From Algisphaera agarilytica (lineage in GTDB: Bacteria; Planctomycetota; Phycisphaerae; Phycisphaerales; Phycisphaeraceae): a stretch of DNA of 64,000 nucleotides. The notes below the pieces were generated by a model that saw only the letters and a program-made list of their open reading frames with translations, did not search any database and was not told the origin of the DNA. The stretch is from the NCBI RefSeq assembly GCF_014207595.1, contig NZ_JACHGY010000001.1:186001-250000 (forward strand), given 5' to 3'. Made by a program: the position numbers and the translations under genes. Positions 44,435-61,215 of this stretch are shown one piece after another. Within the stretch, counting starts at the first letter, position 1. Each line of letters starts with the position of its first letter.

Positions 44435-45832
44435 TTATTCCCCGCCCCAATCCGGACCAACATCGTCATACGTAAGTGGCGATTCAAGTACCGCAAGGCC
44501 GGTGTCGGATTTCGGCGCTAATGGCTCAAGTGAATCCGCAGACAGATTCGCCCCGACCCGGCCAAATGCAGGGCTGCCCGATATCCGCCACAAGCCATCG
44601 CTTCCCACCACACCATCCAACTCAACCTCTTGCACCCCCTCACGCGGCGAAATCCCTAACGGGGCTCCATAGACCACATTGTTGATCCATTTCCAGTCCG
44701 TATCGATTCCGCCTTCGAAAATCGGAGCATGAGTTGAGTACAACATGTTGTTGGCGATAACCAAGGCTTCAGGCAAAAGTGAGCGGTTTCGTTCACCAAT
44801 CCCCCAATCAAAGGTAATCGCAGCACCCTTGACGTCAATGATGGTGTTGTTTTCAATCCGGACACGTTTGACCTGTTCGTACCCGTTGTCTTTCGTGTTG
44901 ACGATACCCGCCGCAAAAGAGATAGCACCGTCCATGCGATCATCGATCTGGGCTATGTAGTTGTTCCTGATGACATGGTCTTCACCGATGATGCGGATCC
45001 CACCCGAGCGTGGCTTTTCGTTACCAAGAAAGTAGTTCTGCTCAACCAGAGCTCTGTGCCCGTGACGCAAGGTCAATGTGCCGGCTGACTCGCGGAAGGT
45101 GTTCGCGCGGAACACGTTGTCACAGGCCTTATTTGAAATGATCTCGATTTCGCCGTCGACACGTTCGAAGAGATTTCTTTCCACCAACACCGCGGTGCTG
45201 GTCTCGTGGTATGTGCTTGTCCCGATGCGGATCGTTTCGAACCCGTTTCCGTCGCCCGGCGGACGGTCAAGAAAATGGTTGTTGTCGATACGGTGGTGGG
45301 TGGTGATCTGATCACTGACCCATACACACACGGTCACACCCGAGTGGTTCTGGCCTTTGAATCGGCAGTGATCCACGCGATTATGCTGGCCGTATAGCGA
45401 CACCCAGAAATAGCGGGTCTTGGGGTCTTCGGGGTTGTATTCCTTGATTTGCGTGTTCGTCAGCCGGCAGTGGACGGCGTCTCCCAACGGCCCGCGGAAT
45501 TGGATCACGTGACTCAGATCACCGGGTGCGCCGCCGACAAAATTGAGGCCGCTGACCATCAAATGACTGCCAGAGATTGAAAGGTTGGACCGGCCGGTTA
45601 GCGTGACGCCGCCAGGGGTCTGGGCTCGTAAGGTGATCGGGTCCGTCTTGGTACCGTGTCCGGCAAAGACAAGTTCGGCGTCGGTCCAAACCCCGTCGGA
45701 CATCACCACCGTATCGCCCGGCCGGATCGATTCCATTGCGGCCTCGAGTTCTTCAATATTCTGGACCACAACCTCTGTCGCATGGCTCAAGGAAAGCGGG
45801 CAAAGGAAAAGCAGTAGGACGAATAATCTCAT
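44435..45832 (-). CDS. PL6-family alginate lyase, short form
   Basis: 465 residues from the ATG at 45832, with signal peptide 1-19 (LSLSHA). The rest is a right-handed parallel beta-helix opening NIEELEAAMESIRPGDTVVMSDG. PL6 catalytic blocks are present: GEIEIISNKAC (about 229, with the calcium-site Glu residues and the Lys) and TLTLRHGHRALVEQNYFLG (about 256, with the Arg). It cuts alginate by beta-elimination; chondroitin/dermatan lyases are the alternative within the family, less likely beside PL7. It overlaps the stop of the long PL6 by 4 bp and ends the operon. It lacks the tail modules of its neighbour. Confidence 0.92.
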   Translation of the reverse strand: MRLFVLLLFLCPLSLSHATEVVVQNIEELEAAMESIRPGDTVVMSDGVWTDAELVFAGHGTKTDPITLRAQTPGGVTLTGRSNLSISGSHLMVSGLNFVGGAPGDLSHVIQFRGPLGDAVHCRLTNTQIKEYNPEDPKTRYFWVSLYGQHNRVDHCRFKGQNHSGVTVCVWVSDQITTHHRIDNNHFLDRPPGDGNGFETIRIGTSTYHETSTAVLVERNLFERVDGEIEIISNKACDNVFRANTFRESAGTLTLRHGHRALVEQNYFLGNEKPRSGGIRIIGEDHVIRNNYIAQIDDRMDGAISFAAGIVNTKDNGYEQVKRVRIENNTIIDVKGAAITFDWGIGERNRSLLPEALVIANNMLYSTHAPIFEGGIDTDWKWINNVVYGAPLGISPREGVQEVELDGVVGSDGLWRISGSPAFGRVGANLSADSLEPLAPKSDTGLAVLESPLTYDDVGPDWGGE

Positions 45833-48087
45833 ATCGATGACCTCAGTTTCTGTTCGGTTCTTGAGAAAAGCTGCGGTAGCACCAGGATCAACACCGCCAA
45901 ACCACCCGGCTCGGGGATCTGCAATTGCCCACTGATATTGGTTCCACCGGCGCCAAAATTGTCCGCCCAAACGGTGTAGTCCGCCGCATCGACCACGCCG
46001 TTTCCGTTGCCGTCTGCGGCGAGGTTGGTGGTTGAACCGAAGCTGTCGGCCCAGACGGTGTAGTCCGCCGCGTCTACCGTTCCGTTTAGGTTGTAATCCC
46101 CGGAGATGACCATTGCTTCCAGCAACGCATCGAGTTCACCGGAAGTAAGATCACTATCCATGTGAAATATAAACGCATCAAGCTGCGCATCACGCTCTCG
46201 GCGGCCCAAACGAAACTCCAGGGGCATACCGACGTTGGACTCGCTGATGACAAACGTCTCGCCCGTTACCCAATCAAATAGACCATCGCTAGACAACGTC
46301 TCGGTGACGCTTGGGTCTGCATCGAACCCGTCAGGAGAATAAAAAGAATCGGTCGAGCTACTGAATCCGCGCGCCCGGTAGTAAGCGGTATACACCCCCG
46401 CGTTGCTAAACAACAGGTCATAAACGGCGAGGGTTTCGTGGGAAACGCTCAGATCAGTACGGGACCCGGAGGGGGATTCGAGGGCTGCACCGTTCGAAGC
46501 CGCGACATCCTGAACGGCGGTCCACACGTCGCCGTCGCTGTCGGGGTCAAGGATGTGCGAGTAATCCTCGGCCTCAATCACGAGGTACGGCCCACTCGGT
46601 GCCGTGGGGATGCCGAGAATCCAATCCGCGCCGACGTCATCAGTGGTCAACGGCTTACGGACGATCTGCGCGGTTGAAAATTCATCGGCTCCGATGTCGA
46701 CCACACCGATACGGGCCTGGCCATCCATATCGGTGGTGATCGAACTGAGAGCGATTCCGCCTTCGATCGCGGGGCTGCTGGAAGACAGCCGCCACAAGCC
46801 ATCGCCCCCCACCTCGAGCAACGGATCGACTTCGTTGATGCCTGGGCGTGAGGGAATACCAAGGCTTGTGCCGTAGGCGATGTTGTTCTGCCAGGTCCAT
46901 CCACTGCCTTCATTACCATCGAACAGCGGGTCTTGGGAGGAGTAGATCAGGTTGTTGGCGAGGGTCACGTATTCGGCCAAAACAGTACGGTCGCTTGTGC
47001 CCAGGCCATGGTCGAGCTTGATGGCAGCACCATCGACATCAACAATCGTGTTGTTGGCGATCAGGGCGTTCTTGACCTGCTGATATCCGTTTGCGGGTGT
47101 ATTTTCGACACCCGCAGATATCGAGATTGCGCCATCGGCCCGGCCGTCGGTGTTGGCGATGTAGTTATTGATGATGACGTGATCTTCACCGATCACGCGG
47201 ATGCCTCCGGTACCGGCCTTGTCTTCCCCGAGAAAGAAATTGCCTTCTACGGTGGCACGATGGCCGTGGCGAAGGGTGAGGGTGCCGGCCGCTTCGCGAA
47301 AGGTGTTGTATTGAAAAGTATTCTCGTTCGACTTGTTCGAGATGATCTCGATCTCACCGTCGGTACGCTCGAAGAGGTTATTTTCGACGACAATGTTGGC
47401 GTTGGTGCTGCCGAAGGCACTGGTTCCCAACCGGATAGTTTCATAGCCGTTCTCCGGTCCCTGAGGTCGATCGGCGAAGTAGTTTGAGTCGATTCGGTGG
47501 TTGGCCGTACTGCCGTCGAGCCAGGCGACCAAGGTGACACCCGAATGGCTTTGACCGGAAAAGGTTGAGTGATCGACTCGGTTGTTTTGGCCGTAGAGCG
47601 AAACCCAGAAGTACCGCGTGCCCGAGTCGCTGGGGTTGTAGTCTTTGATCTGGGTATTGGTGACACGGCTGTAGCTGGCGTTGCCCTCCGAGCCACGGAA
47701 TTGGATGACGTGATCACCTTCGCCAAGCGATCCATTCTCGAAATTCAGTCCATCCACGACAAGGTGGCTACCGGAGATGGCAAGCATGGAGGTGCCGGTG
47801 AGCGTGACACCCCCGGGCGTCTGGGCGCGAAGCGTGATCTCGCTGCCAGTCGTACCAAAGCCCGCAAAGTCGATTTGCTGGTCCACCCATGTGCCGTTGG
47901 TCATCACCAGCGTGTCGCCGGGCTGGGCCGTCTGCATCGCGGCCGAGATATCCGCGGCAGAAGAGACCGCGATCTCAGCCGCACTAAGCGGCATTGCCAT
48001 ACAGAGCCAGGTAGATGAAAAACCTACCGACACCTGTATGAACAGTGCTTTTGAAAAACTAGATACCAAAACCGTATTCCAATTCAA
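45829..48087 (-). CDS. PL6-family alginate lyase with CBM-like, dockerin-like and PEP-CTERM modules
   Basis: 752 residues from a TTG at 48087; no in-frame ATG is nearer. Signal peptide about 1-37. The PL6 beta-helix spans about 38-450 with EIEIISNKS (about 249) and TLRHGHR (about 270). A jelly-roll region near 497-650 opens YLVIEAEDYSHI, like CBM6/35. Two calcium-loop repeats (GDYNLNGTVDAADYTVW, DGNGNGVVDAADYTVW; about 663-712) are dockerin-like. The end is a PEP-CTERM tail: P725-E-P, hydrophobic segment, basic end. An exosortase should anchor it at the surface. It is 52 bp downstream of the esterase gene. Confidence 0.92.
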   Translation of the reverse strand: MNWNTVLVSSFSKALFIQVSVGFSSTWLCMAMPLSAAEIAVSSAADISAAMQTAQPGDTLVMTNGTWVDQQIDFAGFGTTGSEITLRAQTPGGVTLTGTSMLAISGSHLVVDGLNFENGSLGEGDHVIQFRGSEGNASYSRVTNTQIKDYNPSDSGTRYFWVSLYGQNNRVDHSTFSGQSHSGVTLVAWLDGSTANHRIDSNYFADRPQGPENGYETIRLGTSAFGSTNANIVVENNLFERTDGEIEIISNKSNENTFQYNTFREAAGTLTLRHGHRATVEGNFFLGEDKAGTGGIRVIGEDHVIINNYIANTDGRADGAISISAGVENTPANGYQQVKNALIANNTIVDVDGAAIKLDHGLGTSDRTVLAEYVTLANNLIYSSQDPLFDGNEGSGWTWQNNIAYGTSLGIPSRPGINEVDPLLEVGGDGLWRLSSSSPAIEGGIALSSITTDMDGQARIGVVDIGADEFSTAQIVRKPLTTDDVGADWILGIPTAPSGPYLVIEAEDYSHILDPDSDGDVWTAVQDVAASNGAALESPSGSRTDLSVSHETLAVYDLLFSNAGVYTAYYRARGFSSSTDSFYSPDGFDADPSVTETLSSDGLFDWVTGETFVISESNVGMPLEFRLGRRERDAQLDAFIFHMDSDLTSGELDALLEAMVISGDYNLNGTVDAADYTVWADSFGSTTNLAADGNGNGVVDAADYTVWADNFGAGGTNISGQLQIPEPGGLAVLILVLPQLFSRTEQKLRSSI

Positions 48088-48139: not shown

Positions 48140-49663
48140 TCACCGGCTGTCCTGGGTAATGCCTTCCCAGTCATCGGTACGGAACGGCGAAGCAGGAAGG
48201 CCCTCCGCGTTAATCAGATTGGCCCAGTACGGGTTGTCCGCCCAGGCATAGCGCACCGCCAACGGCGTCTTGACCTTGGCTTCAGAGACGACCAACCGAT
48301 CACCTTCAACCACGGCTTTGGCCCAGCGGAACTTGCGGTCCGATCCGGCGATCACAAAGCCTTTGATGGGGCCTCCTCCTCGAGCTTCGAGGCCAGACCC
48401 GATGTTCTCGAACTCGAGATAAACCTTGTCGTCAACAATCTCATAACCGGTGTAGATCGGCCCGCTGTGGATGAGGTCATTACCATACGCCTCGGACAGG
48501 GCCCAACGCGCCAGCCGTTTGCCGATGGGCTCTTTATCAACCGGGTGGATGTCGGTGGGATCGCCGATATCGATCGTGACCGCAAGCCCAACTTCGTCTA
48601 ACTCCTGCGAGACATGCAGCTGTGCCTCCCGCAGTTCCGCCCAGCTATAGACACCAGGCGGAACGCGCGGCGGGACTTCGTAATTGGGCAGCTGCACCAC
48701 ACCAAATGGCAGAGAGCCCTGCCCCCAATGATCGCGCCATGAGTGAATCATCTCGCCGAGCAGTGGCTCGTACTGCATCGCCCGCCAAGTGTTCGACTCG
48801 CCTTGGTACCACACCGCCCCGCGCACCGCGTAGGGAATCAGCGGGTGGACCATCGCGTTGAACAAACCACCAGGAGCGTAGCGAGCCGGAGGCTCTGAAG
48901 GCTTCTTGGCCTGAGGATCACCTGCAGCGACCGCGGATTCGTAGGCTTTTAGATCCGCTTTGTACTTTGCGATACGAGCTTCCCAACGCTCGGGTATGGG
49001 GCTGAGTTCGGGATTGGCCGAGAGACGGCTCAGTGGTGTCCACGCTTCCGCGGGCGTGCCGCCATAGGCAGTGTGGATCAAGCCAACCGTCACACCGAGC
49101 TCACGCTGCAACTCCGCCCCCATAAAGTAGGCCACGGCACTGAACATCCGTGCCTCGGACGGCTCACATTCAGCCCAGCGGGCATCGACATCATCCTGAG
49201 GCTCGTCCGCGATAGCCCGATCAACACGGAACAGCCGGAGCCCTTCACGTTGTAGATCACGCTCGATTCTCTCATCGTCCCAAATCTTGATCAGGCGCAT
49301 ATCCATATTGGATTGCCCCGAGCAGAGCCATACCTCGCCGACCATGACGTCCACGAGTTTCAGGTCGGTGTTTCCCGAGTTCACTTTCAACTCGTAGGGA
49401 CCACCCGCGGGCATCGACTGAAACGCCGCCTTCCATCGCCCTTCCGCATCCGCCCGGGTTGTCACGGTTTGTCCATTGAAAACCAGCGACACTTCCTGCT
49501 GCGGCTCAGCCCATCCCCAAATGGGCACTTCCTTATCGCGTTGCAGCACCATGTGGTCGGCGAACACAGCTGGCAGCCTGAGCGATTGCGACATCGCGCT
49601 TGTCACACAAAAAAGCAGGATCAGCCACAAGCCATGAGTAGCGAGTAAACCACGGCTTTGCAT
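48140..49663 (-). CDS. Sialate O-acetylesterase-like SGNH hydrolase
   Basis: 507 residues with an N-terminal signal peptide (about 8-27). Catalytic elements: S118 in CSGQSNM, WYQGESN and the Asp/His pair in DPTDIHP. The opening LPAVFADHMVLQRDKEVPIWGWAE is the beta domain of this family. Its start overlaps the stop of the PL7 gene by 1 bp (TAATG), so translation is coupled. Such enzymes remove acetyl groups from sugars. In an alginate locus the probable substrate is O-acetyl mannuronate; sialic acid is not suggested by any neighbour. Confidence 0.9.
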   Translation of the reverse strand: MQSRGLLATHGLWLILLFCVTSAMSQSLRLPAVFADHMVLQRDKEVPIWGWAEPQQEVSLVFNGQTVTTRADAEGRWKAAFQSMPAGGPYELKVNSGNTDLKLVDVMVGEVWLCSGQSNMDMRLIKIWDDERIERDLQREGLRLFRVDRAIADEPQDDVDARWAECEPSEARMFSAVAYFMGAELQRELGVTVGLIHTAYGGTPAEAWTPLSRLSANPELSPIPERWEARIAKYKADLKAYESAVAAGDPQAKKPSEPPARYAPGGLFNAMVHPLIPYAVRGAVWYQGESNTWRAMQYEPLLGEMIHSWRDHWGQGSLPFGVVQLPNYEVPPRVPPGVYSWAELREAQLHVSQELDEVGLAVTIDIGDPTDIHPVDKEPIGKRLARWALSEAYGNDLIHSGPIYTGYEIVDDKVYLEFENIGSGLEARGGGPIKGFVIAGSDRKFRWAKAVVEGDRLVVSEAKVKTPLAVRYAWADNPYWANLINAEGLPASPFRTDDWEGITQDSR

Positions 49664-50475
49664 TACTCGGGCTCCGCAGAGTCAGCGGCCTCATCGGCAA
49701 CTGCAAGAGGCTCGGGCTTATCAAATGTATCGAGGAATACGAGGGATTCGAACTCGACCTTAGACGTGCCCGGGTCTTGGTTGTACACCCCAGCCTTGAA
49801 GTAGCTCGGCAAACCATTCCAGTAATTCACATCCATATCGACTTTGGTCTCGCCTTCAATCGTTACAACCATCCGCCCTTGGTGGATCACGATCTCCGCA
49901 TCGAAGAACCCATCGGGACGCGGGCCAAGGTCAATGTTCTTCGTCGCCAGGTTATCGAGCGAGATCGGCTTGCTGGGGTCTTGGGGGATGCGGATCGCAG
50001 CCCAGAGGTGATCCTGGGTCTTGCGGTAATCGCCTCGCCGTGTGATACGTAGCAGGGGCTTGTTGAGTCCGTCGTCACCGCTCTTCTTGTCATGAATCTG
50101 AAGGAAGGTGAACTGCTCAAGGCCAGGCGTTTCTGGGACATGGACGCGGACCCTGGCGAGCAGGCGTTGAGGTGTTTGGGTAGCGGTATCCCAATCACCG
50201 GTCATCTGGCGCAGCTCGGAACGCTTGCTATCGCCGGTGACCGTAAAGGTCATGTAACGCTTCGATTCATCGAGGAAGAAGTATTCGTTGGCTGCACCCC
50301 TGAACTTTCCCTGGTTGATCTTGGTGGGCGAACTCGTCGGGGCCTGGAGCTTCGAGTCATCCAACACCGATCGGAATTGCTCCAAGTCGTACGGCACAGC
50401 CTGGCTAGACGCGGGTTGCAACCCGACCATCAATACCACTGCCACGAATAATCGCATCTGTAATCGCAAGACCAT
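49663..50475 (-). CDS. PL7-family alginate lyase
   Basis: 270 residues. The three PL7 signatures are intact: R85-S-E-L-R-Q, Q126-I-H and Y225-F-K-A-G-V-Y-N-Q. These supply the Arg, Gln, His and Tyr of the catalytic groove. A signal peptide is present (SQAVPYD end). The ATG at 50475 has a GGAGG only 1 nt upstream; a TTG at 50469 would have it at 7 nt, and MRLF at 50457 is a third option. It makes unsaturated alginate oligosaccharides outside the inner membrane. The gene lies 42 bp after the symporter. Confidence 0.94.
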   Translation of the reverse strand: MVLRLQMRLFVAVVLMVGLQPASSQAVPYDLEQFRSVLDDSKLQAPTSSPTKINQGKFRGAANEYFFLDESKRYMTFTVTGDSKRSELRQMTGDWDTATQTPQRLLARVRVHVPETPGLEQFTFLQIHDKKSGDDGLNKPLLRITRRGDYRKTQDHLWAAIRIPQDPSKPISLDNLATKNIDLGPRPDGFFDAEIVIHQGRMVVTIEGETKVDMDVNYWNGLPSYFKAGVYNQDPGTSKVEFESLVFLDTFDKPEPLAVADEAADSAEPE

Positions 50476-50517: not shown

Positions 50518-52308
50518 TCACGAGGGCTCTGCAGCAGTTTCAATCCCCATCGCCTCGGGCTTAGGTTGCGGTGCGCGCGAGCCCGCCCAATACAACAGGC
50601 CGCCGATTACCCCCACGAATCCGCCTACAAATAGGATGCCCAGCCGGCCCTCGAGCGGATTTGGCAGCACAATCAAGCAGCAGATGAACCCACCGATCAC
50701 GATGGCGAAACTACCCATGATTTTCAATTGACTCAGATCATTGCCCTCGCCGACCTCGGCCTTGAAGTCGATCGGTCGATGCATCTTCTCGAAGAATTCA
50801 TCGACCTGGCCTTGGTACGCAGGTGAAGCTGTCGGCCAGAACGGGATGGTCAACAAAAACCCGACCGCTCCCGCCGCGGAATTCGCAAAGACAACTGTCG
50901 CAAACGCCCAGGTAGTTCCAAATAGCGCTTCGCTGTAGAACCCCATGGCCGAAACCGTGAATCCCAGCGTAATCGAAGCGATCGCGGACCAGGCTGGGGC
51001 GCGGCGGATCAACAACGCCAGAAGCATCGGGATCGCCATAGGCAAGGCTAACATCGCGCCAACGTCAAGCATCAGGTCAAATACGCCCTTGCCATCCTGG
51101 GCCACAAAATACAACGTCAAGCCGATGATGGAGAGACCAAAACCCAGCGACGCGATCTGCGCCATACGCAATCGCGGTTTGGCATGATCCATCTTGACGC
51201 CAAACAGGCGAGCAAGCGCGGGAATGATGTCGCGAACCAACATGGCAGCGTTCTTGTTCAGGCCGCTGTCCATCGAGCTCATCGTTGCGGAAAGCATCGC
51301 AACCACCATCAGCCCGGTCATGCCGACCGGCAAGAGGTTCATGCTGGCCACGGCGTAAGACGCTTCTTTACGCTTGTCTTCCGCCATCCCCAATACGCCC
51401 ATGACATCGGCCTCAAACAACAACCGCCCGGTCATCGGGGGGATGAACCAGATCACAGACCCCATGACCATTAAAAGCCCGGCGAGCAAAGCCGCTTTAC
51501 GGGCGTCCAGGCCGGTCTTCACCGCGTAGTAGCGTTGCGACGCCATGACCGTATTCATCTTGACGATCTGTGCCAGGAAGATTGCCGACGCCCAAATCCA
51601 GGTGTACGTGTTTTTACCGGTGAATCGCCCTTCCTTGTTGATCACCGCGTAGTCATCGGTCAAGCCTTTGGAGTCGATCTGTGAGAACAAACCGCCAACG
51701 CCCCCGAGTTCCCGGAGGCAGAGGTAAGCCATCAGGATCGTGATCGGAATCAGAATCAGCGTCTGAAGGAAATCGGTCGCCATCACCGCCCAGCTGCCGC
51801 CGACGGTCGAGTAGATGAGCACGATAACCCCGATAACAATCACGACGTGCTCGACTTTGTAGCCAAAAACCGCCGAGCAGAAGATGGAGAGTCCAAAGAG
51901 CCATAACGAGGCATACGCAAGGCCAAGGACCACAAAAATCCAGGCGTAAAGTTGCTGAGTCGCCGGACCAAACCGCGCGCGGATGGCTTCGGGAACCGTC
52001 ACCACGCGCAACTGACGGAACCAGGGGGCAAAGATCACCCCCGCCACAAGATATCCCGCAGCGTTGGCCATGAAGATGATCATGACCGACCACCCCGCCT
52101 CGTAGGCCGCCCCAGCCGCCCCGGTAAACGTCCACGCGCTGAACTGGACCATAAACGCACTGGCCCCGACCAACCACCACGTGCCCTTACAGCCGTTACG
52201 GAAGTAATCGCTATCGTCTTTGTTGAACCGCTTGACGACTGCGCCGATCGCGATCAGCAAGACGAGGTAGACGCCAATGACGGAATATTCAATCCAACCG
52301 TTGGACAA
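50518..52308 (-). CDS. SSS-family sodium/solute symporter (putative oligoalginate importer)
   Basis: 596 residues from a TTG at 52308, no ATG being in frame nearby. About 13-14 hydrophobic segments are visible. The sodium-site region SAWTFTGAAGAAYEAG and the SSMDSGLNKNAAMLVRD block are typical of the solute:sodium symporter family. A long hydrophilic loop with a charged end sits after the 12th segment. Its place directly upstream of PL7, esterase and PL6 genes suggests uptake of uronate oligomers or monomers. It is not of the TonB type, so outer-membrane passage must use something else. Confidence 0.88.
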   Translation of the reverse strand: MSNGWIEYSVIGVYLVLLIAIGAVVKRFNKDDSDYFRNGCKGTWWLVGASAFMVQFSAWTFTGAAGAAYEAGWSVMIIFMANAAGYLVAGVIFAPWFRQLRVVTVPEAIRARFGPATQQLYAWIFVVLGLAYASLWLFGLSIFCSAVFGYKVEHVVIVIGVIVLIYSTVGGSWAVMATDFLQTLILIPITILMAYLCLRELGGVGGLFSQIDSKGLTDDYAVINKEGRFTGKNTYTWIWASAIFLAQIVKMNTVMASQRYYAVKTGLDARKAALLAGLLMVMGSVIWFIPPMTGRLLFEADVMGVLGMAEDKRKEASYAVASMNLLPVGMTGLMVVAMLSATMSSMDSGLNKNAAMLVRDIIPALARLFGVKMDHAKPRLRMAQIASLGFGLSIIGLTLYFVAQDGKGVFDLMLDVGAMLALPMAIPMLLALLIRRAPAWSAIASITLGFTVSAMGFYSEALFGTTWAFATVVFANSAAGAVGFLLTIPFWPTASPAYQGQVDEFFEKMHRPIDFKAEVGEGNDLSQLKIMGSFAIVIGGFICCLIVLPNPLEGRLGILFVGGFVGVIGGLLYWAGSRAPQPKPEAMGIETAAEPS

Positions 52309-52418: not shown

Positions 52419-53273
52419 TTATTGATGGCCGCCGTAGTCATACCCACGAGTCCCAAGGGGATCCCGTAGAGTAACCGCCGCCTCATCGGTTGTAACCGAA
52501 GCCGCATGGCCATCGACATAAACATAATTGGCTCGCGCATCGAATTCATCGAAGTCCAAACCGCTGTGGCGATCCGGCTCGCCGCCGCGGAAGCGGCGAT
52601 TGATGTCGGGATTAAGACGCCAGAACACGCTTCCGCTCGAAATCGTGGGCTTCAAACCATACGGTTCAAAACTATCACCATTAATGATCCAATTCGAGGG
52701 GCCGGTCATTTGATCATACTTGAACCAACCTGTAGTCGAATCGCCCGTACTGCTCGAGTCGTGTGGAGTTGGATCGTATTCAGGCCAATTCAAAGTAGTA
52801 GGGGTGGGTGTGCCGTTCAAAATTTGAGGGACTGATCCCTGGATCAAGTAGGGGCTCATACCATATCCCGTTTTTGAATCCCCAGTGCCAGTCGCTTCGG
52901 TACGCGACAGGTCAAACTCAGGGCATGTGAAGTTTTCGCTGATGAATTTATCACGATCGCCAGTTGCAATATCTCGTTTGGCCTGATTCATGGTGTAAGC
53001 CAATACTTCGTACCAGAACACATTGTTGCTGCCTGCACCGCTAGGATCTAGGTTGGTAAGAGACGTTAGCTGCTGGCCAGGTACGATTACATCCTTGTAG
53101 TCATTCCCATAGACCGCATGAGCTTGTCCAATACCGCGAAGATTGCTTAAACACGCCATATCGCGAGCTGCTTTTCGTGCTGCCCCCAGTGCAGGAAGCA
53201 AAATCCCAATCAGCAAAGCAATAATAGAAATCACCACTAAAAGTTCAATCAGGGTAAAAGCGTGACGTTTCAT
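52419..53273 (-). CDS. Prepilin-type protein with H-X9-DG tail
   Basis: 284 residues. The N-terminus has the type IV pilin/T2SS signal MKRHA^[18 protein letters not shown] with the conserved Glu at +5 of the mature protein. Hydrophobic residues to about 27, then a large extracellular domain with two Cys (ACLSN, FTCPEF), and the H-X9-DG signature in the [13 protein letters not shown] ... YVDGHAAS region near the end. GGAG lies 8 nt before the ATG. Planctomycete genomes hold many such proteins of unknown use; here it belongs to the alginate locus. Confidence 0.88.
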
Positions 53274-54363: not shown

Positions 54364-55398
54364 TTAGTCGACATCCACGAGATCCACGAGCGTGGGCTCG
54401 ACCAGAATGTTGGCACGGGCGTAGATCTCGGGCTTATCGATACGCTGCATCAGCTGTTCAACCGCGAGGGTGCCGATACGGTCCGGGCGGATGTCGATGG
54501 TGGCGATCTGAGGCGACAGGCCCGCCAGCATGGGGTCGTTGTCACACGCCACGACTGTGACGTCACGGCCCGGCTCGATAACACGGCTACGTAAAGCCTC
54601 AAACACCATGGGCGTCATCTGACCACGCGGGACAAACAACCCCGTCGGCGGCTCGGGCAAAGCGGCAAGACGGTCGATCAAGCTGTTGATAAATTCACGC
54701 TTGGCCCGGAAGTCGCCCGCTGCGAAGCTGGGCGATTCCTGGTCACGAATGATTTCACAGGCCACACCAGCGTCTTCAGCCGCCTGGGCGAATGACTCGG
54801 CCCGAACAGGGAAGCCTAGGTGAGTCGCATCGACATAAAGAAAAGCCACGCGGCGGTGGCCCCGGTCGATGAGATACTCCGCCGCAAGCCGGCCGATGGC
54901 GTCGTTGTCGGTGACCACGCGGTCACCCCAATAGCCCGAGCGCGATCGTGCACTCATTACCCAGACTGCCGGAAAACGACGAAGCTTTTCAGCAAACTCA
55001 CCCCGAGGGGCGTTGCCGTGCAGGATCAGGCCGTCGATCTCACCCCGATCAACCACCGAAGGCAGCCGGGTGTTATCACGGACCTGGCCAAGCGTCATGC
55101 TGTAGCCCTGATCGCCGAGCGCGGTTTCAACCGCATGGATCGCTGCCGCAGAAGCCGGGGCGATCAGGGGCGTCGCCTCGGTCCCAATCATCAAGACCGC
55201 CACATTTCCGGTTCGTGCCGCCCGGCCCGATTTGGGCTGAGGGCCGCGACGCTTGACCGGCGGGACATAGCTGAGCTTTCGCATCGCAGCCTGAACCCGA
55301 GACGCCACCTCGACCGAGACACCGGGCTTTTGGTTGATGACCCTCGACACGGTGGTGTGTGAACACCCGGCAAGTTTGGCGACCTCGACAATTGACAT
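54364..55398 (-). CDS. LacI/GalR-family transcriptional regulator
   Basis: 344 residues. N-terminal helix-turn-helix IVEVAKLAGCSHTTVSRVINQKPGVS, hinge near LSYVPP, then the periplasmic-binding-protein-like effector domain (about 60-340) with GLILHGNAP and VVACDNDPMLAGLSPQIATIDI. It is divergent from the PF05426 lyase gene and upstream of the PEP-CTERM, prepilin, symporter and lyase genes. It is likely to repress both arms until a uronate-type inducer binds; its own gene may be autoregulated from the AT-rich 225-bp region. Confidence 0.94.
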   Translation of the reverse strand: MSIVEVAKLAGCSHTTVSRVINQKPGVSVEVASRVQAAMRKLSYVPPVKRRGPQPKSGRAARTGNVAVLMIGTEATPLIAPASAAAIHAVETALGDQGYSMTLGQVRDNTRLPSVVDRGEIDGLILHGNAPRGEFAEKLRRFPAVWVMSARSRSGYWGDRVVTDNDAIGRLAAEYLIDRGHRRVAFLYVDATHLGFPVRAESFAQAAEDAGVACEIIRDQESPSFAAGDFRAKREFINSLIDRLAALPEPPTGLFVPRGQMTPMVFEALRSRVIEPGRDVTVVACDNDPMLAGLSPQIATIDIRPDRIGTLAVEQLMQRIDKPEIYARANILVEPTLVDLVDVD

Positions 55399-55623: not shown

Positions 55624-56874
55624 ATGAATCAAGCCTCTCCACTTAAAACAGGACTATGTGCCGCCGGCCTTTTCTTTGGGCTCACGACTGCAGCCTGCAA
55701 CGCCGCCCCACCCCAAGAGCTTCCCGAGGTATATCTGACCGATCCTGCCCGACTGGCCGAGGTCCAGGCTCGCGTCCAAGCAGGCGACCCCGCGCTCGAA
55801 CCCGCTGTAGCCGCGCTCATCGAAATCGCTGAAGAGACCATGGAACTCCCCATGGTGTCGATCGCCGACAAGCCTTCGACGCCTCCCAGCGGCAACAAGA
55901 ACGACTACGTCAGCCTCTCCCCTTATTGGTGGCCCAACCCCGACACCGAGGACGGACTGCCCTACGTTCGACGTGACGGCGAAATCAACCCCGAACGTGA
56001 TCTCTATGACGTCAACAAACTCGGCGACTTCGGCAAGGTCGTGAGCTGGTGCGGCTTCGCCTACTACTTCACCGGTGATGAACGCTTCGCAGAAGAAGCG
56101 GTGAAGCGTATCGAACATTTCCTGATCGATCCCGAAACCCGGATGACGCCCCGGATGCAGTACGGCCAGTTCGTTCCCGGCGTGAACAACGGCCGGAAGT
56201 ACGGCGTCATCGAAACACTCCGACTCCGTTGGGTGCCCGACGCGATCAGCCTCCTCGAAGGCTCTGAAGCGATGACCCCCGAGGTCATGTCCGGCGCGAG
56301 GCAATGGTTTGCCGATTACGCCATCTGGTTGAACACCAGCGAGTTCGGTACCGGCGAGCGAGACGGACCGAACAACCACGGCACCTGGGCGGAAGCTCAG
56401 ATCGCCTACTACTCCGCTTTCGCGGGGGACTGGGACACCGTCAAAGAAATGGCCGATCGCGTGCCCGAACGGATCGCTCACCAGTTCGAGCCCAATGGCG
56501 AACAGCCCATTGAGATCGAACGGACCAAAGGCCTGGACTACACCGAGTTCAATCTCCGCGCGATGACCGAACTGGCGGTCTTGGCCGAGCGCGTTGGCGT
56601 GGATCTATGGTCTTTCCAGACCGATGACGGCCGGAGCATCCGCCAGGGCTTCGACTTTGCTATGCCCTACTTCGCCAGCGAAGCCGATTGGCCCTATAAG
56701 CAAATCACCCCGCATCAGAAGAAACACGACTGGTATGTGCAGTCGCTGCGGCGGGCCTCGATCGCCTATGACGACCCTCGCTTTGAAGAAGTCATCTCCA
56801 AACTCGACGGCATCACCGGCAAAGGCATCGTCTTCCGCGACCTGATCATCTCGCTTCCGGCTGAATCCGAGTAA
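55624..56874 (+). CDS. Alginate_lyase (PF05426)-type polysaccharide lyase, PL38-like
   Basis: 416 residues with an N-terminal signal peptide (about 1-28). Typical blocks: KNDYVSLSPYWWPNPDTEDGLPYVRRDGEINPE, GVNNGRKYGVIETLRLRWVPDA and GPNNHGTWAEAQ, which are shared by the alpha/alpha-toroid Alginate_lyase families (PL5/PL38). The Asn-Asn-His pair and the Tyr-rich blocks match the neutraliser and base regions of that fold. It probably attacks uronate polymers; glucuronan or other polyuronates are possible as well as alginate. First gene of the plus arm. Confidence 0.88.
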   Translation: MNQASPLKTGLCAAGLFFGLTTAACNAAPPQELPEVYLTDPARLAEVQARVQAGDPALEPAVAALIEIAEETMELPMVSIADKPSTPPSGNKNDYVSLSPYWWPNPDTEDGLPYVRRDGEINPERDLYDVNKLGDFGKVVSWCGFAYYFTGDERFAEEAVKRIEHFLIDPETRMTPRMQYGQFVPGVNNGRKYGVIETLRLRWVPDAISLLEGSEAMTPEVMSGARQWFADYAIWLNTSEFGTGERDGPNNHGTWAEAQIAYYSAFAGDWDTVKEMADRVPERIAHQFEPNGEQPIEIERTKGLDYTEFNLRAMTELAVLAERVGVDLWSFQTDDGRSIRQGFDFAMPYFASEADWPYKQITPHQKKHDWYVQSLRRASIAYDDPRFEEVISKLDGITGKGIVFRDLIISLPAESE

Positions 56875-56939: not shown

Positions 56940-57932
56940 ATGAAGTACGCACGGCTCGGCGAGACCGACATCAAAGTCTCAAAGATCGCATTCGGATGTA
57001 TGTCCACGGTCGCCAACCCGACCTACGATGGCCTCGAAGACGCCGAGGGTATTGCCACGATCCGCTCGGCCCTCGACCACGGCATCAACTTCTTCGACAC
57101 CGCACCCGCCTACGGCGATGGCGCGTCCGAAGACCTGCTCGGCCGAGCGTTGCAGGACGTCCGGGACCAAGTCATTATCGCCAACAAGGTCAGCAGCCAG
57201 GTGATGTCAGCAAAAGAGGTCGTTGAAGAGTGCGAGAAGAGCCTCAAACTCCTCCGCACCGACTATATGGACCTCTACCAGATCCACTGGCCTCGCCGTC
57301 AAGTGCCCCTCGAAGAAACGCTCAAGGCGATGGACGACCTGCTCAAGCAGGGCAAGGTCCGTTCCCTGGGGGTGTGCAACTTCGGCATCGAAGACCTGAC
57401 CGAAGCGTTAGGAAGCGATGTGCCGTTGGTGTCCAACCAGATCGCTTACAGCCTGCTATCTCGGGCTGTGGAATTCGAGGTAGAAGGGTTGTGCGAACGA
57501 TACGGGATCGGGTTCCTGTGCTACTCGCCACTCGCCCAGGCTTTGCTGGCCGGCAAGTATGAGTCCGCCGACGACGTTCCCCCGGAACGGGCACGAACAC
57601 GTATGTTCTCAAAGGATCGCCCCCAGTCCCGTCACGACGAAGACGGCTGCGAAGAACAAGTCTTCGCCGCGATCGCCGCGATCCGAAAGATCAGCCATCG
57701 CGTGGGCCGCTCCATGGCCGATGTTTCTCTTGCATGGCTGCTACACCAAGATTCGGTGACATCCATTCTCGTCGGCGCCAGTCGGCCAGACCAGGTCGCG
57801 CGGAACGCCGCTTCGGCCCAGGTCCAACTGTCCCAGGACGACTTGGACGAACTGGATGCGGTGACCCAACCCGTGAAGTTGGCTATGGGCGGCAGCCTCG
57901 ATATGTGGGCAACCCCGTCGCGCATCCGCTGA
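56940..57932 (+). CDS. Aldo/keto reductase
   Basis: 330 residues, with AAGGAG upstream. The catalytic tetrad is D53, Y58 (FFDTAPAYGDGAS), K83 (IIANKV) and H116 (LYQIHW). NADPH site near VTSILVGASRPDQVARNA. No signal peptide: cytoplasmic. In this operon it may reduce 4-deoxy-L-erythro-5-hexoseulose uronate (DEH) or a uronate to the alcohol, a step done by an SDR-type DEH reductase in known alginate degraders. It follows the lyase gene by 65 bp. Confidence 0.92.
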   Translation: MKYARLGETDIKVSKIAFGCMSTVANPTYDGLEDAEGIATIRSALDHGINFFDTAPAYGDGASEDLLGRALQDVRDQVIIANKVSSQVMSAKEVVEECEKSLKLLRTDYMDLYQIHWPRRQVPLEETLKAMDDLLKQGKVRSLGVCNFGIEDLTEALGSDVPLVSNQIAYSLLSRAVEFEVEGLCERYGIGFLCYSPLAQALLAGKYESADDVPPERARTRMFSKDRPQSRHDEDGCEEQVFAAIAAIRKISHRVGRSMADVSLAWLLHQDSVTSILVGASRPDQVARNAASAQVQLSQDDLDELDAVTQPVKLAMGGSLDMWATPSRIR

Positions 57933-57971
57933 TTCAGCGTCCAGCGCTTAATGTCCTCTTGAGAGCCCATC

Positions 57972-59054
57972 ATGATTAGCGAAGCAAGCCAACCTGTTCA
58001 CCCGATCCGCACCGGTATTGTTGGCCTGGGACGCAGCGGATGGAACATCCACGCCAAGACCCTGGCGGCACTACCCAAACACTTCCGGGTTTCGGCCGTG
58101 ACCGATCCCGAATCCGAGCGCTGCCTCGAAGCCCGGCAGGGATTGGGGTGTCGAATCTACAACGACTTCGCAGAAATCATCAATGACGACGCACTCGACC
58201 TGATCGTCATCGCCAGCCCGAACCATCTGCATACCGACCAAGCGATCCAAGCGATGGCAGCGGGCAAGCATGTCGTATGCGAGAAGCCGTTCGCACTGAG
58301 TATTGAAGATGCCGACCGTGCAATAGCCGCCGCCGAAGCTTACGACCGCGTACTCAGCCCCTTCCAACACAGGCGGTACGAGTCACACTTCCTCAAGGTG
58401 CAAGAGATCATCGAATCGGGCGCACTGGGCCGTATCGTGCAGGTGCGTATGGTCTGGCACCAGTTCACCCGCCGATGGGACTGGCAGACCCTGCGTCGCT
58501 TTGGCGGTGGGCTACTCAACAACAACGGCTCGCACCTGATGGACCACGCTTTGCAGCTCCTACCCCCCGATGTCGAGCCCGACGTGTGTGCGGACCTCAA
58601 GCAGGTGCTGACGCTGGGCGATACCGAAGACCACATCAAGATTGTGATGAAGGCCGAAGGCTGCCCGACATTGGATGTCGAACTTAGCAACGCCGTGGCG
58701 TACCCCCAAGACCGCTGGCTGATCAAAGGGGATCGCGGCGGTTTGCGTGGAACGCCCGAACACCTGCAGTGGCGCACGATGGATTGGGACGCTCTCCCCC
58801 CACGCCGGCTTGAAACCGCCGCCGCGACCGGACGTGAGTACAGCAAAGACGACATCACTTGGACCGAACATACTTGGTCCCCCCCCGCCGACGAACCCTC
58901 GGCCTACGAACGTTACTACCAAGACCTGTATACAACGATCCGAACCGGACAACCTCTGGCAATCCAACCACAAAGCGTCCGCCGACTGATCCGAGTGCTT
59001 GAACGCTGCTACGAACAATGCGACGTCATGCCCGCGTCACCAACCTCGCTTTGA
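57972..59054 (+). CDS. Gfo/Idh/MocA-family oxidoreductase
   Basis: 360 residues. The Rossmann motif is GIVGLGRSGWNIHAK, with EKP in VVCEKPFALS and the substrate-binding helix GGGLLNNNGSHLMDHALQLL. It has no signal peptide. Members of this clade oxidise or reduce carbons of uronates and other sugars with NAD(P). Gap to the preceding AKR gene is 39 bp; the next gene may start 38 bp after its stop. It is a different subgroup from the oxidoreductase at 12234. Confidence 0.9.
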   Translation: MISEASQPVHPIRTGIVGLGRSGWNIHAKTLAALPKHFRVSAVTDPESERCLEARQGLGCRIYNDFAEIINDDALDLIVIASPNHLHTDQAIQAMAAGKHVVCEKPFALSIEDADRAIAAAEAYDRVLSPFQHRRYESHFLKVQEIIESGALGRIVQVRMVWHQFTRRWDWQTLRRFGGGLLNNNGSHLMDHALQLLPPDVEPDVCADLKQVLTLGDTEDHIKIVMKAEGCPTLDVELSNAVAYPQDRWLIKGDRGGLRGTPEHLQWRTMDWDALPPRRLETAAATGREYSKDDITWTEHTWSPPADEPSAYERYYQDLYTTIRTGQPLAIQPQSVRRLIRVLERCYEQCDVMPASPTSL

Positions 59055-59092
59055 ACCTATCCCTCGAACAAGCTCTCGGAGGCCCTTCGAAG

Positions 59093-59974
59093 ATGTACCC
59101 CAGCCTGATGCCCGATCTCATCGGCATCGACCTCAAACCCCATCAATCGATCGAGCTTGCCGCCAAGCACGGCTTCGCCGGAGTTGATCTCCGGCTCACG
59201 CGTCACTTGGCCTGGATTGAGGCGTATGGCCCCGAGGCCCTCGCCGATCTCATGGACGAACACGGAATCCGTGCGGGTTACGCCTCTATGCTGACAAGGA
59301 CGCTCTCGGCTTCGCCTCCCGAATGGAACGAAACCCTCGAACTGCTCCCACGGATATGCCGCTGCGCCGAATCACTCGGCTACACCCGCGCGGGTGTGGT
59401 GGTCTTGCCTTACGACGATCGGTTGGACTTCCCCGCTAATCGCAAGCACCACCTTGATCGTCTGGCCCAAGTCGCGCCGATCATGAACGACCACGGGATC
59501 CGTATTGGGCTCGAATACGTTTCACCCAAAACCCGCCGTGCCGACGCCACGTTCACGTTCATCCACAATATGAACATGATGCTGGAGCTGCTGGCTGACG
59601 CCCGCCAACCCAACCTCGGCCTGATGCTCGACAGCTTCCACTGGCACGCCGCGAGTGAATCAACGCAGAACATTTCACAACTCAACCGCGAGCAAGTCGT
59701 GGTCGTCCATGTTAACGACGCCCCACGCGACACCCCGGTAGAACAACTCGACATCCGTGAACGAGAGCTACCCGGACAGACCGGAGTGATCAATCTCAAC
59801 GGCTTTATCCAAGCCCTGGCAGAACTCGGCTACGACGGACCCGTTACGTCGGAACCCACCAATGATCGCTGGCCGAGCACTCCGGCAGATATCGCCGCCA
59901 ACCAGACCTACCAGTCCATTCACAACATGATTGCATCTGCCCGGTCTAACACGAACAACAGGGCGTCATCTTGA
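59093..59974 (+). CDS. Sugar phosphate isomerase/epimerase-like (AP endonuclease-2 superfamily) TIM barrel
   Basis: 293 residues from MYPSLMPDLIG at 59093; GGAGG lies 10 nt upstream. An alternative ATG at 59018 overlaps the previous gene by 37 bp. Motifs of the xylose-isomerase-like barrel are RIGLEYVSPKTRR (metal Glu), LGLMLDSFHWH (Asp/His), VVVHVNDAPRD and PVTSEPTND (metal Glu). Probably isomerises or epimerises a keto-uronate or derivative. Its stop overlaps the next start by 4 bp. Confidence 0.87.
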   Translation: MYPSLMPDLIGIDLKPHQSIELAAKHGFAGVDLRLTRHLAWIEAYGPEALADLMDEHGIRAGYASMLTRTLSASPPEWNETLELLPRICRCAESLGYTRAGVVVLPYDDRLDFPANRKHHLDRLAQVAPIMNDHGIRIGLEYVSPKTRRADATFTFIHNMNMMLELLADARQPNLGLMLDSFHWHAASESTQNISQLNREQVVVVHVNDAPRDTPVEQLDIRERELPGQTGVINLNGFIQALAELGYDGPVTSEPTNDRWPSTPADIAANQTYQSIHNMIASARSNTNNRASS

Positions 59975-61215
59975 TAACGATCCGTGACATCCGCGTCATT
60001 CTTACCGCACCAATGGGTAGAAACTTGTTGGTCGTCAAAGTCGAAACCTCCGAGCCCGGACTCTACGGCCTGGGCTGCGGCACGTTTACCCAACGATACT
60101 TGCCTGTGCGTTCAGCCGTGTTGGACTATCTCCGCCCCTTGCTGGTTGGCCGTGATATCGCCCGGATCGAGGAGCTATGGCGGCTCATGATGTTCAACAG
60201 CTATTGGCGTAACGGCCCTGTATTGAACAACGCGGTGAGTGGCGTCGACATGGCGCTGTGGGACCTCAAAGGCAAACTCGCTAAGATGCCGCTTTATGAC
60301 CTATGGGGCGGAAAATGCAGAGAGGCTGCTGCCGTTTATCAACACGCCGACGGTGAGACACTCGAGGAGCTCTCGGACCACGTGCAACAACAACTCGACC
60401 AGGGCATGCGCCATGTCCGCATCCGATTCGGAGGCAGCGCTGCCGGAACCCGCGCAAGCGGAGAAACCGGCGGCTTGGCTTACGGCGGGCCCTCCGACTC
60501 ACCCGCCCGACGCCCCGACGGAGCATTGGAAGGCGCCTACTTCGACCCGCGCCACTACACCCTCTCCACGCTCAAAGCGTTGCAGCACGTCCGCGAACGA
60601 TTCGGTGATCAAATCGAACTGCTCCACGATGTGCACGAACGACTCACACCGATCGATGCGATCGGCTTCGCCAAAGACTGCGAAGAGTTCAAGCTGTTCT
60701 TCCTGGAGGACGCCTTGTCACCTGAGGATGGAGCGTGGTTCGAGAAGATGCGTTCCGCGACCACCACACCCATCGCCGTCGGCGAGCTGTTCAATCATCC
60801 GAATGAATGGATGCCGCTGATCGAAAACCGCTGGATCGATTTCATCCGGATGCACGTTAGTCAGATGGGCGGATTGACCCCTGCCCGCAAAGTCACCGCG
60901 ACCGCCGAATCCTTCGGCATACGCACCGCCTGGCACGGCCCCGGCGACGTTTCTCCGGTGGGTCATGCCGCCAACCTTCACCTCAACCTCACCGCCCCGA
61001 ACTTCGGCATCCAGGAGCTGCAGCCGTTCACCGGCCCTACCCCAGAGGTCTTCCCCGGATGCCCGGAATACCGCGACGGCTATTTCTACCCAAACACCAA
61101 GCCCGGCATCGGTGTCGATCTGAACGAAGCTCTCGCCGAAAAATATCCGTGCGATCCATCCGTTATCCAGTGGACGCAAGCTCGGCTACCCGATGGAACT
61201 TTGGTTAAGCCATAG
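59971..61215 (+). CDS. ManD-type enolase-superfamily sugar acid dehydratase
   Basis: 414 residues from a TTG at 59971, overlapping the previous stop by 4 bp. The metal ligands D220 (LLHDVHER), E246 (FFLEDAL) and E272 (GELFNHPNEW) are in place, as are H222 and the WHGPGDVSPVGHAANLH block. This pattern is that of the D-mannonate dehydratase (ManD/RspA) subgroup, which makes 2-keto-3-deoxy-D-gluconate from D-mannonate (some members prefer D-gluconate). In an alginate locus, mannonate could come from mannuronate after reduction. Last gene of the plus arm. Confidence 0.92.
   Translation: MITIRDIRVILTAPMGRNLLVVKVETSEPGLYGLGCGTFTQRYLPVRSAVLDYLRPLLVGRDIARIEELWRLMMFNSYWRNGPVLNNAVSGVDMALWDLKGKLAKMPLYDLWGGKCREAAAVYQHADGETLEELSDHVQQQLDQGMRHVRIRFGGSAAGTRASGETGGLAYGGPSDSPARRPDGALEGAYFDPRHYTLSTLKALQHVRERFGDQIELLHDVHERLTPIDAIGFAKDCEEFKLFFLEDALSPEDGAWFEKMRSATTTPIAVGELFNHPNEWMPLIENRWIDFIRMHVSQMGGLTPARKVTATAESFGIRTAWHGPGDVSPVGHAANLHLNLTAPNFGIQELQPFTGPTPEVFPGCPEYRDGYFYPNTKPGIGVDLNEALAEKYPCDPSVIQWTQARLPDGTLVKP

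Follow-up and report, generated by a model that had tools for sequence, protein, structure and literature searches.

The canonical alginate pathway processes the unsaturated monomer 4-deoxy-L-erythro-5-hexoseulose uronate (DEH) with KdgF, a DEH reductase of the short-chain dehydrogenase/reductase (SDR) superfamily, the 2-keto-3-deoxygluconate (KDG) kinase KdgK and a 2-keto-3-deoxy-6-phosphogluconate (KDPG) aldolase. A 64,000-nucleotide window of the Algisphaera agarilytica genome (C1:186001-250000; genome 4.17 Mb, 99.75% complete) carries a different set. An alginate-lyase-family gene is followed there by an aldo-keto reductase (AKR), a Gfo/Idh/MocA oxidoreductase (Gfo enzyme), a xylose-isomerase-like TIM barrel and a ManD-type dehydratase. 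This four-enzyme block is a real, conserved and alginate-linked enzyme set. It shares with the canonical pathway the lyases, sodium:solute symport and the probable entry of KDG into KDPG, and kinase and aldolase genes are present in the genome. It differs in the upper enzymes of the locus, in the lack of a convincing KdgF and in the position of the kinase and aldolase genes outside the locus.

Other described systems resemble the block in single features. The fungal D-galacturonate pathway reduces a uronate at C1 (Gar1/GaaA reductase) and dehydrates the aldonate to a 2-keto-3-deoxy acid (Lgd1 dehydratase), which is cleaved by an aldolase (PMC6353982). Here, the uronates are others, the enzymes are bacterial, and KDG would be phosphorylated before cleavage; the relation is one of analogy, not membership. 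The UxaC-UxuB-UxuA glucuronate pathway of Escherichia coli would have the step from D-mannonate to KDG in common (PMC6353982), and a UxuA is encoded in this genome. ManD is a member of the enolase superfamily, whereas UxuA belongs to another Pfam family. Flavobacterium UMI-01 also departs from the standard DEH route, but its FlRed oxidises the monomer (DEHU) to 2-keto-3-deoxyglucarate, followed by FlDet and FlDeg, with no aldonate step in the excerpted account (PMC8563752). HdRed of abalone converts DEH to KDG and belongs to the AKR superfamily, as does the reductase of the block; HdRed is eukaryotic, and the two are likened by superfamily, without sequence comparison. AKR-type DEH reductases have been reported from abalone and a brown alga, and a 2022 review assigns bacterial DEH reductases to the SDR or beta-hydroxyacid dehydrogenase superfamilies and eukaryotic ones to the AKR superfamily (PMC8778563). 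In an alginate-degrading member of the Verrucomicrobiota, DehR, KduD, KdgF, UxuA and UxuB have been annotated for uronate metabolism (PMC13274419).

Saturated mannuronate and guluronate, besides unsaturated units, are among the products of exo-acting lyases and of some endo-acting ones (PMC5809466). Accounts of the alginate pathway follow, as far as their excerpts extend, the unsaturated monomer only (PMC8286568, PMC13390454, PMC8778563). No paper containing the terms 'mannuronate reductase', 'guluronate reductase', 'D-mannuronate catabolism' or 'mannuronate isomerase' was found in the openly licensed literature. Searches of the same literature on alginate in Planctomycetes/Phycisphaer and on mannuronate and guluronate enzymes yielded no account of the block; the Gfo family was not searched for.

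The block and its association with PL6 lyases

The block and the lyase gene that opens it comprise the following features (window coordinates, Pfam scores):

55624..56874, + strand, PF05426 alginate-lyase-family gene, first of the block, 248.7 bits
56940..57932, + strand, aldo-keto reductase, 330 aa, Aldo_ket_red 250 bits
57972..59054, + strand, Gfo/Idh/MocA oxidoreductase, 360 aa, GFO_IDH_MocA 97 bits
59018..59974, + strand, xylose-isomerase-like TIM barrel, 318 aa, AP_endonuc_2 105 bits
59971..61215, + strand, ManD-type enolase-superfamily dehydratase, 414 aa, TTG start, MR_MLE_N 67 bits and MR_MLE_C 148 bits

The four open reading frames (ORFs) share the + strand, with neighbours 39 bases apart or overlapping as called, and the AKR frame begins 65 bases past the lyase gene. 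ORF calls and Pfam matches confirm the positions and families assigned to these genes in the initial annotation, and their place behind the lyase.

Conservation was followed across the order in 201 genomes, of which 200 were drawn from a larger group and one was that of the window. Matches were accepted at E 1e-20 (TIM barrel), 1e-60 (ManD and AKR) and 1e-10 (PF14592). The strongest new result is the association of the AKR-Gfo-TIM trio with PL6 in this order. A PF14592 (PL6) gene was detected in 10 of the 201 genomes, and all ten carry the trio (Fisher p 4.7e-16 by genome and 3.7e-8 by genus, neither corrected for descent). By genus, all five PL6 genera are among the six block genera, out of 116. 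In eight of the ten genomes the block has a PL6 gene no more than 10 kb away on its contig; the other two, G061 and G082, have block contigs of just 10.5 and 7.3 kb. An alginate-linked, non-standard monomer-processing set, as initially proposed, is supported by this association.

The AKR-Gfo-TIM order occurs in 11 genomes of six genera (the window's genome, G061, G016, G021, G031, G039, G043, G082, G085, G109 and G121), which makes the gene set more than a chance assembly. A GDSL hydrolase gene is inserted between the Gfo and TIM genes in G085. The PF05426 lyase stands directly upstream of the trio in all but G121. AKR matches were obtained in 15 genomes, with at least 53% identity in exactly the 11 block genomes and 45-50% in G079, G154, G142 and G030. 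TIM matches were found in 19 genomes and ManD matches in 12. Twenty neighbourhoods were read, covering 16 of the 18 TIM-positive genomes besides the window's own; G151, G006 and the second G085 match were left out. Loci L049, L051, L052 and L109 were left out of the locus analysis, and L050, L107 and L108 served as BLAST subjects only. The nine TIM matches outside the block are 33-41% identical, and those read lie in different surroundings, three of them next to an apparent serine hydroxymethyltransferase gene, as judged by eye. The named record UBA1926 (L117) adds a twelfth block, whose ManD is just 41% identical. The trio was also found in 8 of the best 80 of 545 Gfo loci, in records named Phycisphaera, Phycisphaeraceae, Phycisphaerales, Phycisphaerae and Planctomycetes, among them 'Phycisphaera sp. 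isolate g3_MAG_00007' and 'Planctomycetes bacterium syqfu'.

ManD is an accessory of the trio, not an obligate partner. It comes immediately after the TIM gene in 7 of the 11 block genomes and lies elsewhere in G121. At 60% identity or more it occurs in 8 of the 11 block genomes vs 1 of the 190 others (p 2.6e-11). The place of ManD in G121 (L089:5822-9092) is held by genes for a D-2-hydroxyacid dehydrogenase, an enolase-superfamily protein of divergent sequence (28.4 bits, slightly below the cut-off) and another TIM barrel.

The remaining genes of the locus lie on the opposite strand (families by Pfam, the pseudopilin by motif):

54364..55398, - strand, LacI-family regulator, divergent from the block
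52419-53273, - strand, pseudopilin-like gene (N_methyl motif)
50518..52308, - strand, sodium:solute symporter (Pfam SSF), proposed monomer importer
49663..50475, - strand, PF08787 (PL7-type) alginate lyase
48140..49663, - strand, SASA-family acetylesterase
45829..48087, - strand, PF14592 (PL6-type) lyase
44435..45970, - strand, second PF14592 (PL6-type) lyase

A PEP-CTERM protein is encoded between the LacI and pseudopilin-like genes, and the order then continues as listed. Alginate is the likely substrate, judged by family knowledge, because three lyase families share one locus. The closest solved chains of the PF05426 lyase are 3nfv (292 bits, 'alginate lyase') and 8bdq (202 bits, 'Alginate lyase family protein'). 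We take it to belong probably to CAZy family PL38, and it is probably exported. The symporter is present in the loci of relatives. The LacI gene adjoins the block in eight of the ten other block genomes, and the two without it have short contigs. No shared LacI operator could be named in the promoter regions of nine loci, where the best symmetric words were AT-rich and uneven. Words of 14 and 16 bases gave best scores above those of five simple shuffles, and a LacI site may exist in these regions.

The pseudopilin-like gene has counterparts in the alginate loci of relatives. A pseudopilin was among 17 genes over-expressed on alginate in the Verrucomicrobiota study (PMC13274419). The SASA-family acetylesterase recurs in alginate loci of several relatives, which suggests O-acetylated, perhaps bacterial, alginate as the substrate.

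Family assignment of the four enzymes

Family residues are intact in all four enzymes; the positions named below are invariant in 11 aligned sequences. The AKR carries D53, Y58, K83 and H116, which we take to be the Asp-Tyr-Lys-His tetrad. Together with the Pfam match, they place the enzyme in the AKR superfamily. Its closest solved chains are General stress protein 69, MtmW and IolS, at 148-156 bits, and it reaches no NCBIfam model cut-off. A role as C1 reductase of DEH and uronates is proposed.

The Gfo enzyme scores above the cut-offs of PF01408, PF22725 and PF02894 and thus belongs to the Gfo/Idh/MocA family. Residues K105 (the lysine of the EKP motif), H188, D191 and D45 presumably have the functions usual for the family, and the acidic D45 suggests NAD(H) as cofactor. 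The inositol 2-dehydrogenase IolG equivalog (TIGR04380) is matched with 111.3 bits vs a cut-off of 355. The group is large. The best 80 of 545 confirmed relatives, whose loci were kept, span Planctomycetota, Chloroflexota, archaea and others. A different protein family lies nearby, mostly adjoining, in 23 of these 80 loci, and the one member tested by Pfam is AP_endonuc_2. The oxidoreductase and the isomerase-like barrel may therefore be a general pair, joined to alginate use in this order. UBA7800 and 3_bin.56 (L148, L162) contain a second locus with a PF05426-like lyase, a pilin-like gene, a Gfo enzyme 45-49% identical, a sodium:solute symporter and one further gene, identified as GH20 by Pfam for L148 only. 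BLAST gave no match to the AKR or TIM barrel of the block in these two loci.

The TIM gene probably starts near 59093, at a MYPSL start common to several relatives. Residues 1-23 of the longer ORF have a predicted local distance difference test (pLDDT) score below 50, and the mean of the model is 86.9. A fold search ranked 3u0h first (Z 31.9, root-mean-square deviation (rmsd) 2.5, 277 residues aligned) and then IolI (Z 30.1, rmsd 2.9, 275 aligned), two barrels with Z 27.4 and 26.6, and ketose 3-epimerases near Z 25. E166, D205, H231 and E279 are presumably metal ligands. Fold and putative ligands place the protein among the IolI-like/xylose-isomerase-like barrels, and the modelled structure points to an isomerase or epimerase. 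The KdgF-like ring opening considered in the initial annotation finds no support in this fold and these residues, which are those of xylose-isomerase-like isomerases and epimerases, and was rejected on this comparison, not by experiment.

The ManD-type enzyme (mean pLDDT 85.1) is assigned to the ManD subgroup by fold, close sequence similarity and catalytic residues. D220, H222, E246, E272, R293 and H322 are conserved, the first four of which we take to be the metal ligands and the base of the DxH motif. In the fold search, 4ihc, a 'probable mannonate dehydratase' (Z 56.1, rmsd 1.5, 394 aligned), is tied with 3tw9, a 'gluconate dehydratase' (Z 56.0, 1.8, 395). After entries without a stated function, e.g. 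3gy1 (Z 54.9), follow 3t6c 'with bound d-gluconate and mg' (Z 54.3, 1.9, 407) and two chains titled mannonate dehydratase, 3pk7 from Chromohalobacter (Z 52.2, 1.9, 385) and 2qjm from Novosphingobium (Z 51.6, 1.7, 382). By sequence, 4ihc, 3tw9 and 3t6c score 497-502 bits (4ihc 502) and the Chromohalobacter and Novosphingobium enzymes 279-320 bits. The protein is thus closest to a branch that holds a titled gluconate dehydratase. Judging by the title of a study of the subgroup, ManD specificities reportedly include mannonate and gluconate, and titles in the Protein Data Bank (PDB) agree. Activity as a D-mannonate/D-gluconate dehydratase is proposed. The earlier proposal that ManD takes mannonate from mannuronate ends agrees with the chemistry, as C1 reduction of D-mannuronate does give D-mannonate. 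It holds less well in two points: the trio also occurs where no ManD was found, and the closest structures favour D-mannonate no more than D-gluconate.

Uronate genes elsewhere in the genome

The genome contains 4 PF01081, 11 PF07883, 9 PF00294 and 17 PF13561 matches, none of them inside the window. At family level, the absence of KdgF, SDR reductase, KdgK and KDPG aldolase from the window thus holds. The lower half of the usual pathway is present outside it. Four KDPG-aldolase-family genes were found; two of them (1129 kb, 1942 kb) adjoin PfkB kinases, forming pairs at C1:1128-1130 kb and C1:1942-1943 kb. The best NCBIfam models of both kinases are an aldolase/kinase fusion and KDG kinases, all below cut-off, and the aldolase L042:11988-12662 scores above the TIGR01182 cut-off (221 vs 156). 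A KDG kinase and a KDPG aldolase, as used by the canonical pathway, are accordingly present as families only. The second kinase-like and aldolase cluster (L043:8702-13348) also contains an aldehyde dehydrogenase and another enolase-superfamily protein. A UxuA-type mannonate dehydratase is encoded at 2729 kb (481 bits).

The upper half is less certain. KduI, the isomerase of the KduI/KduD pathway, was not detected in this genome (G000; no PF04962 match at E 0.001). No convincing KdgF was recognised among the 11 Cupin_2 matches; two of these lie in ORFs below 200 aa, only the better of which was searched, and no KdgF query sequence was used. This small cupin is similar to TM1459, and its 33 PDB matches include no entry under the name KdgF. 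Four of the 17 PF13561 matches were scanned against NCBIfam. Three SDRs have a suggestive context or score, one of which was searched across the order. A KduD-like SDR at 3521 kb scores 329.6 bits vs a cut-off of 338.85, another, at 1946.8 kb, is separated by about 3 kb from the kinase of the 1942-1943 kb pair, and the third, at 735 kb (C1:733-736 kb), adjoins a GH88-like gene whose product weakly resembles unsaturated glucuronyl hydrolases (38.6 bits).

The SDR of the 735-kb type has matches in 33 genomes. A GH88-like gene stood alongside in all eight loci read, in one of which (L238) ORF calling had missed the SDR itself. An aldolase and a kinase follow in G016 and G021; the short stretches read in G121 and G052 show an aldolase without a kinase. 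The GH88-like protein of loci L233-L240, about 470 aa long, is conserved beside the SDR, sometimes with KDPG aldolase and KDG kinase, and its sequence possibly represents a divergent unsaturated uronyl hydrolase family.

The initial annotation had placed the block in the position of the usual DEH pathway and called for a genome search for kdgK, kdgA and a DEH reductase. The set is indeed non-standard and alginate-linked. KDG-kinase-like and KDPG-aldolase genes exist elsewhere, as do SDR reductases that are candidates only, and the notion of a replacement is half right and the case for it incomplete.

Proposed route and alternative readings

The whole of the evidence is best explained, tentatively and with a little less than even confidence, by the block being the cytosolic monomer-processing arm of the alginate locus. 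Lyase action would yield DEH from the unsaturated units, and chain ends would supply saturated mannuronate and guluronate. The symporter would import these monomers, and the LacI-family regulator would co-regulate the locus. The AKR would reduce the C1 aldehyde, converting DEH to KDG, D-mannuronate to D-mannonate and L-guluronate to D-gluconate. The latter two products were obtained when the Fischer projections were turned by script. Dehydration of either D-mannonate or D-gluconate gives the same KDG. All three alginate monomers would therefore reach KDG through a C1 reductase and a dehydratase of double specificity, the ManD-type enzyme acting on both aldonates. The TIM barrel and the Gfo enzyme would form an isomerase/NAD(H)-oxidoreductase pair on a parallel aldose-ketose route, either from uronate via ketouronate to aldonate, or from DEH via its 2,5-diketo isomer to KDG. 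KDG would then pass through the KDG kinase and KDPG aldolase encoded elsewhere. A DEH reductase from Sphingomonas is reported to oxidise D-gluconate with 79% and D-mannonate with 37% of its efficiency on KDG, L-guluronate being named as the product from D-gluconate (PMC6011931). The most specific form of the scheme assigns C1 reduction of all three monomers to a single bacterial AKR and conversion of both aldonates to KDG to a single dehydratase; it is unlikely to hold in full.

Several results weigh against this assignment. The ManD-type enzyme stays below the cut-offs of NCBIfam ManD NF043051 (391.1 vs 550 bits) and of PRK15072 (387.9 vs 430). Bound gluconate does not decide its substrate, because 3qke, a Chromohalobacter enzyme titled D-mannonate dehydratase, also binds D-gluconate. 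ManD was not found in G031, G043 and G109 (95, 95 and 88% complete), where the query matched only two incomplete stretches of enolase-superfamily sequence per genome (best E 7.4e-19 to 3.2e-18). Retention of UxuA in these genomes was considered as backing for a D-mannonate intermediate; it failed, as UxuA was not found there either (IlvD/EDD-type dehydratases were not searched for). These results count against D-mannonate as the sole outlet of the trio. A mirror-tree comparison, made with 10 of the 11 block genomes (all but G109) and with a smaller number for some pairs, gave mixed results: rho was 0.88 for lyase and TIM barrel (36 pairs), -0.03 for ManD and LacI, and 0.00 for ManD and TIM barrel (28 pairs), the divergence of ManD not tracking that of the barrel. 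G085 is the only block genome without a PL6 match. Finally, the genome encodes SDR reductases that could reduce DEH.

These SDRs permit a more textbook-like account, in which DEH is handled by an SDR encoded elsewhere together with KDG kinase and KDPG aldolase, and the block serves only saturated end sugars or another uronate of the same diet. This account is rather unlikely. The enzyme beside the GH88-like gene, the one near the 1942-kb pair and the KduD-like one would be eligible, the last two by the position and score given above. The genes at C1:733-736 kb match the G016 and G021 cluster of GH88-like protein, SDR, aldolase and kinase, and the SDR reaches at least 60% identity in 6 of the 11 block genomes vs 4 of the 190 others, a distribution that also counts against the proposed route. 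It could be a DEH reductase. However, no candidate SDR lies inside the alginate locus, and the 735-kb type also occurs in G052, G035, G151 and G020, where no PL6 was found, is only 50% identical in the PL6-bearing G061, and has a GH88-like partner that points to unsaturated glucuronyl sugars. These observations suggest a broader role with unsaturated uronates.

Two further readings turn on the TIM barrel and the Gfo enzyme. As a substitute for KduI and KduD, the barrel would isomerise DEH to the 2,5-diketo acid, which would then be reduced to KDG by either the Gfo enzyme or the AKR, with ManD as an extra. The missing KduI, a barrel with the fold and conserved residues of sugar isomerases, and the three genomes in which the trio occurs with neither ManD nor UxuA found agree with such a substitution. 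It is distinctly unlikely, given that KduI and the trio co-occur in G031, G109 and, by a weaker match, G039, and that we know of no activity for this TIM group. Very improbable is a 3-keto-sugar route on uronide oligomers, with C3 oxidation, elimination of the glycosidic bond and reduction by the AKR. The Gfo enzyme and a xylose-isomerase-like barrel are a recurrent pair, and the former weakly matches glycoside and disaccharide 3-dehydrogenase models (42 and 45 bits; cut-offs 750 and 650) and also matches DgpA2 (97 bits). None of the five NCBIfam matches of the barrel, on the other hand, is a 3-keto-glycoside lyase, and its closest folds are isomerases and epimerases.

Under the preferred reading, a monomer-processing arm of the alginate locus, the conserved block probably turns alginate sugar acids into a common intermediate with enzymes unlike those of textbook alginate degraders. 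In the most specific form of the scheme, the AKR would be a bacterial DEH reductase of a kind absent from the list in the excerpted 2022 review (PMC8778563). With a dehydratase of double specificity at its side, it would offer candidate genes for what becomes of the saturated mannuronate and guluronate ends; no such candidates were found in the openly licensed literature. Four soluble-looking enzymes in one conserved block make this gap testable. Mannonate and gluconate dehydratases within the ManD subgroup would then match the two alginate epimers, and the block might explain why the subgroup has both.

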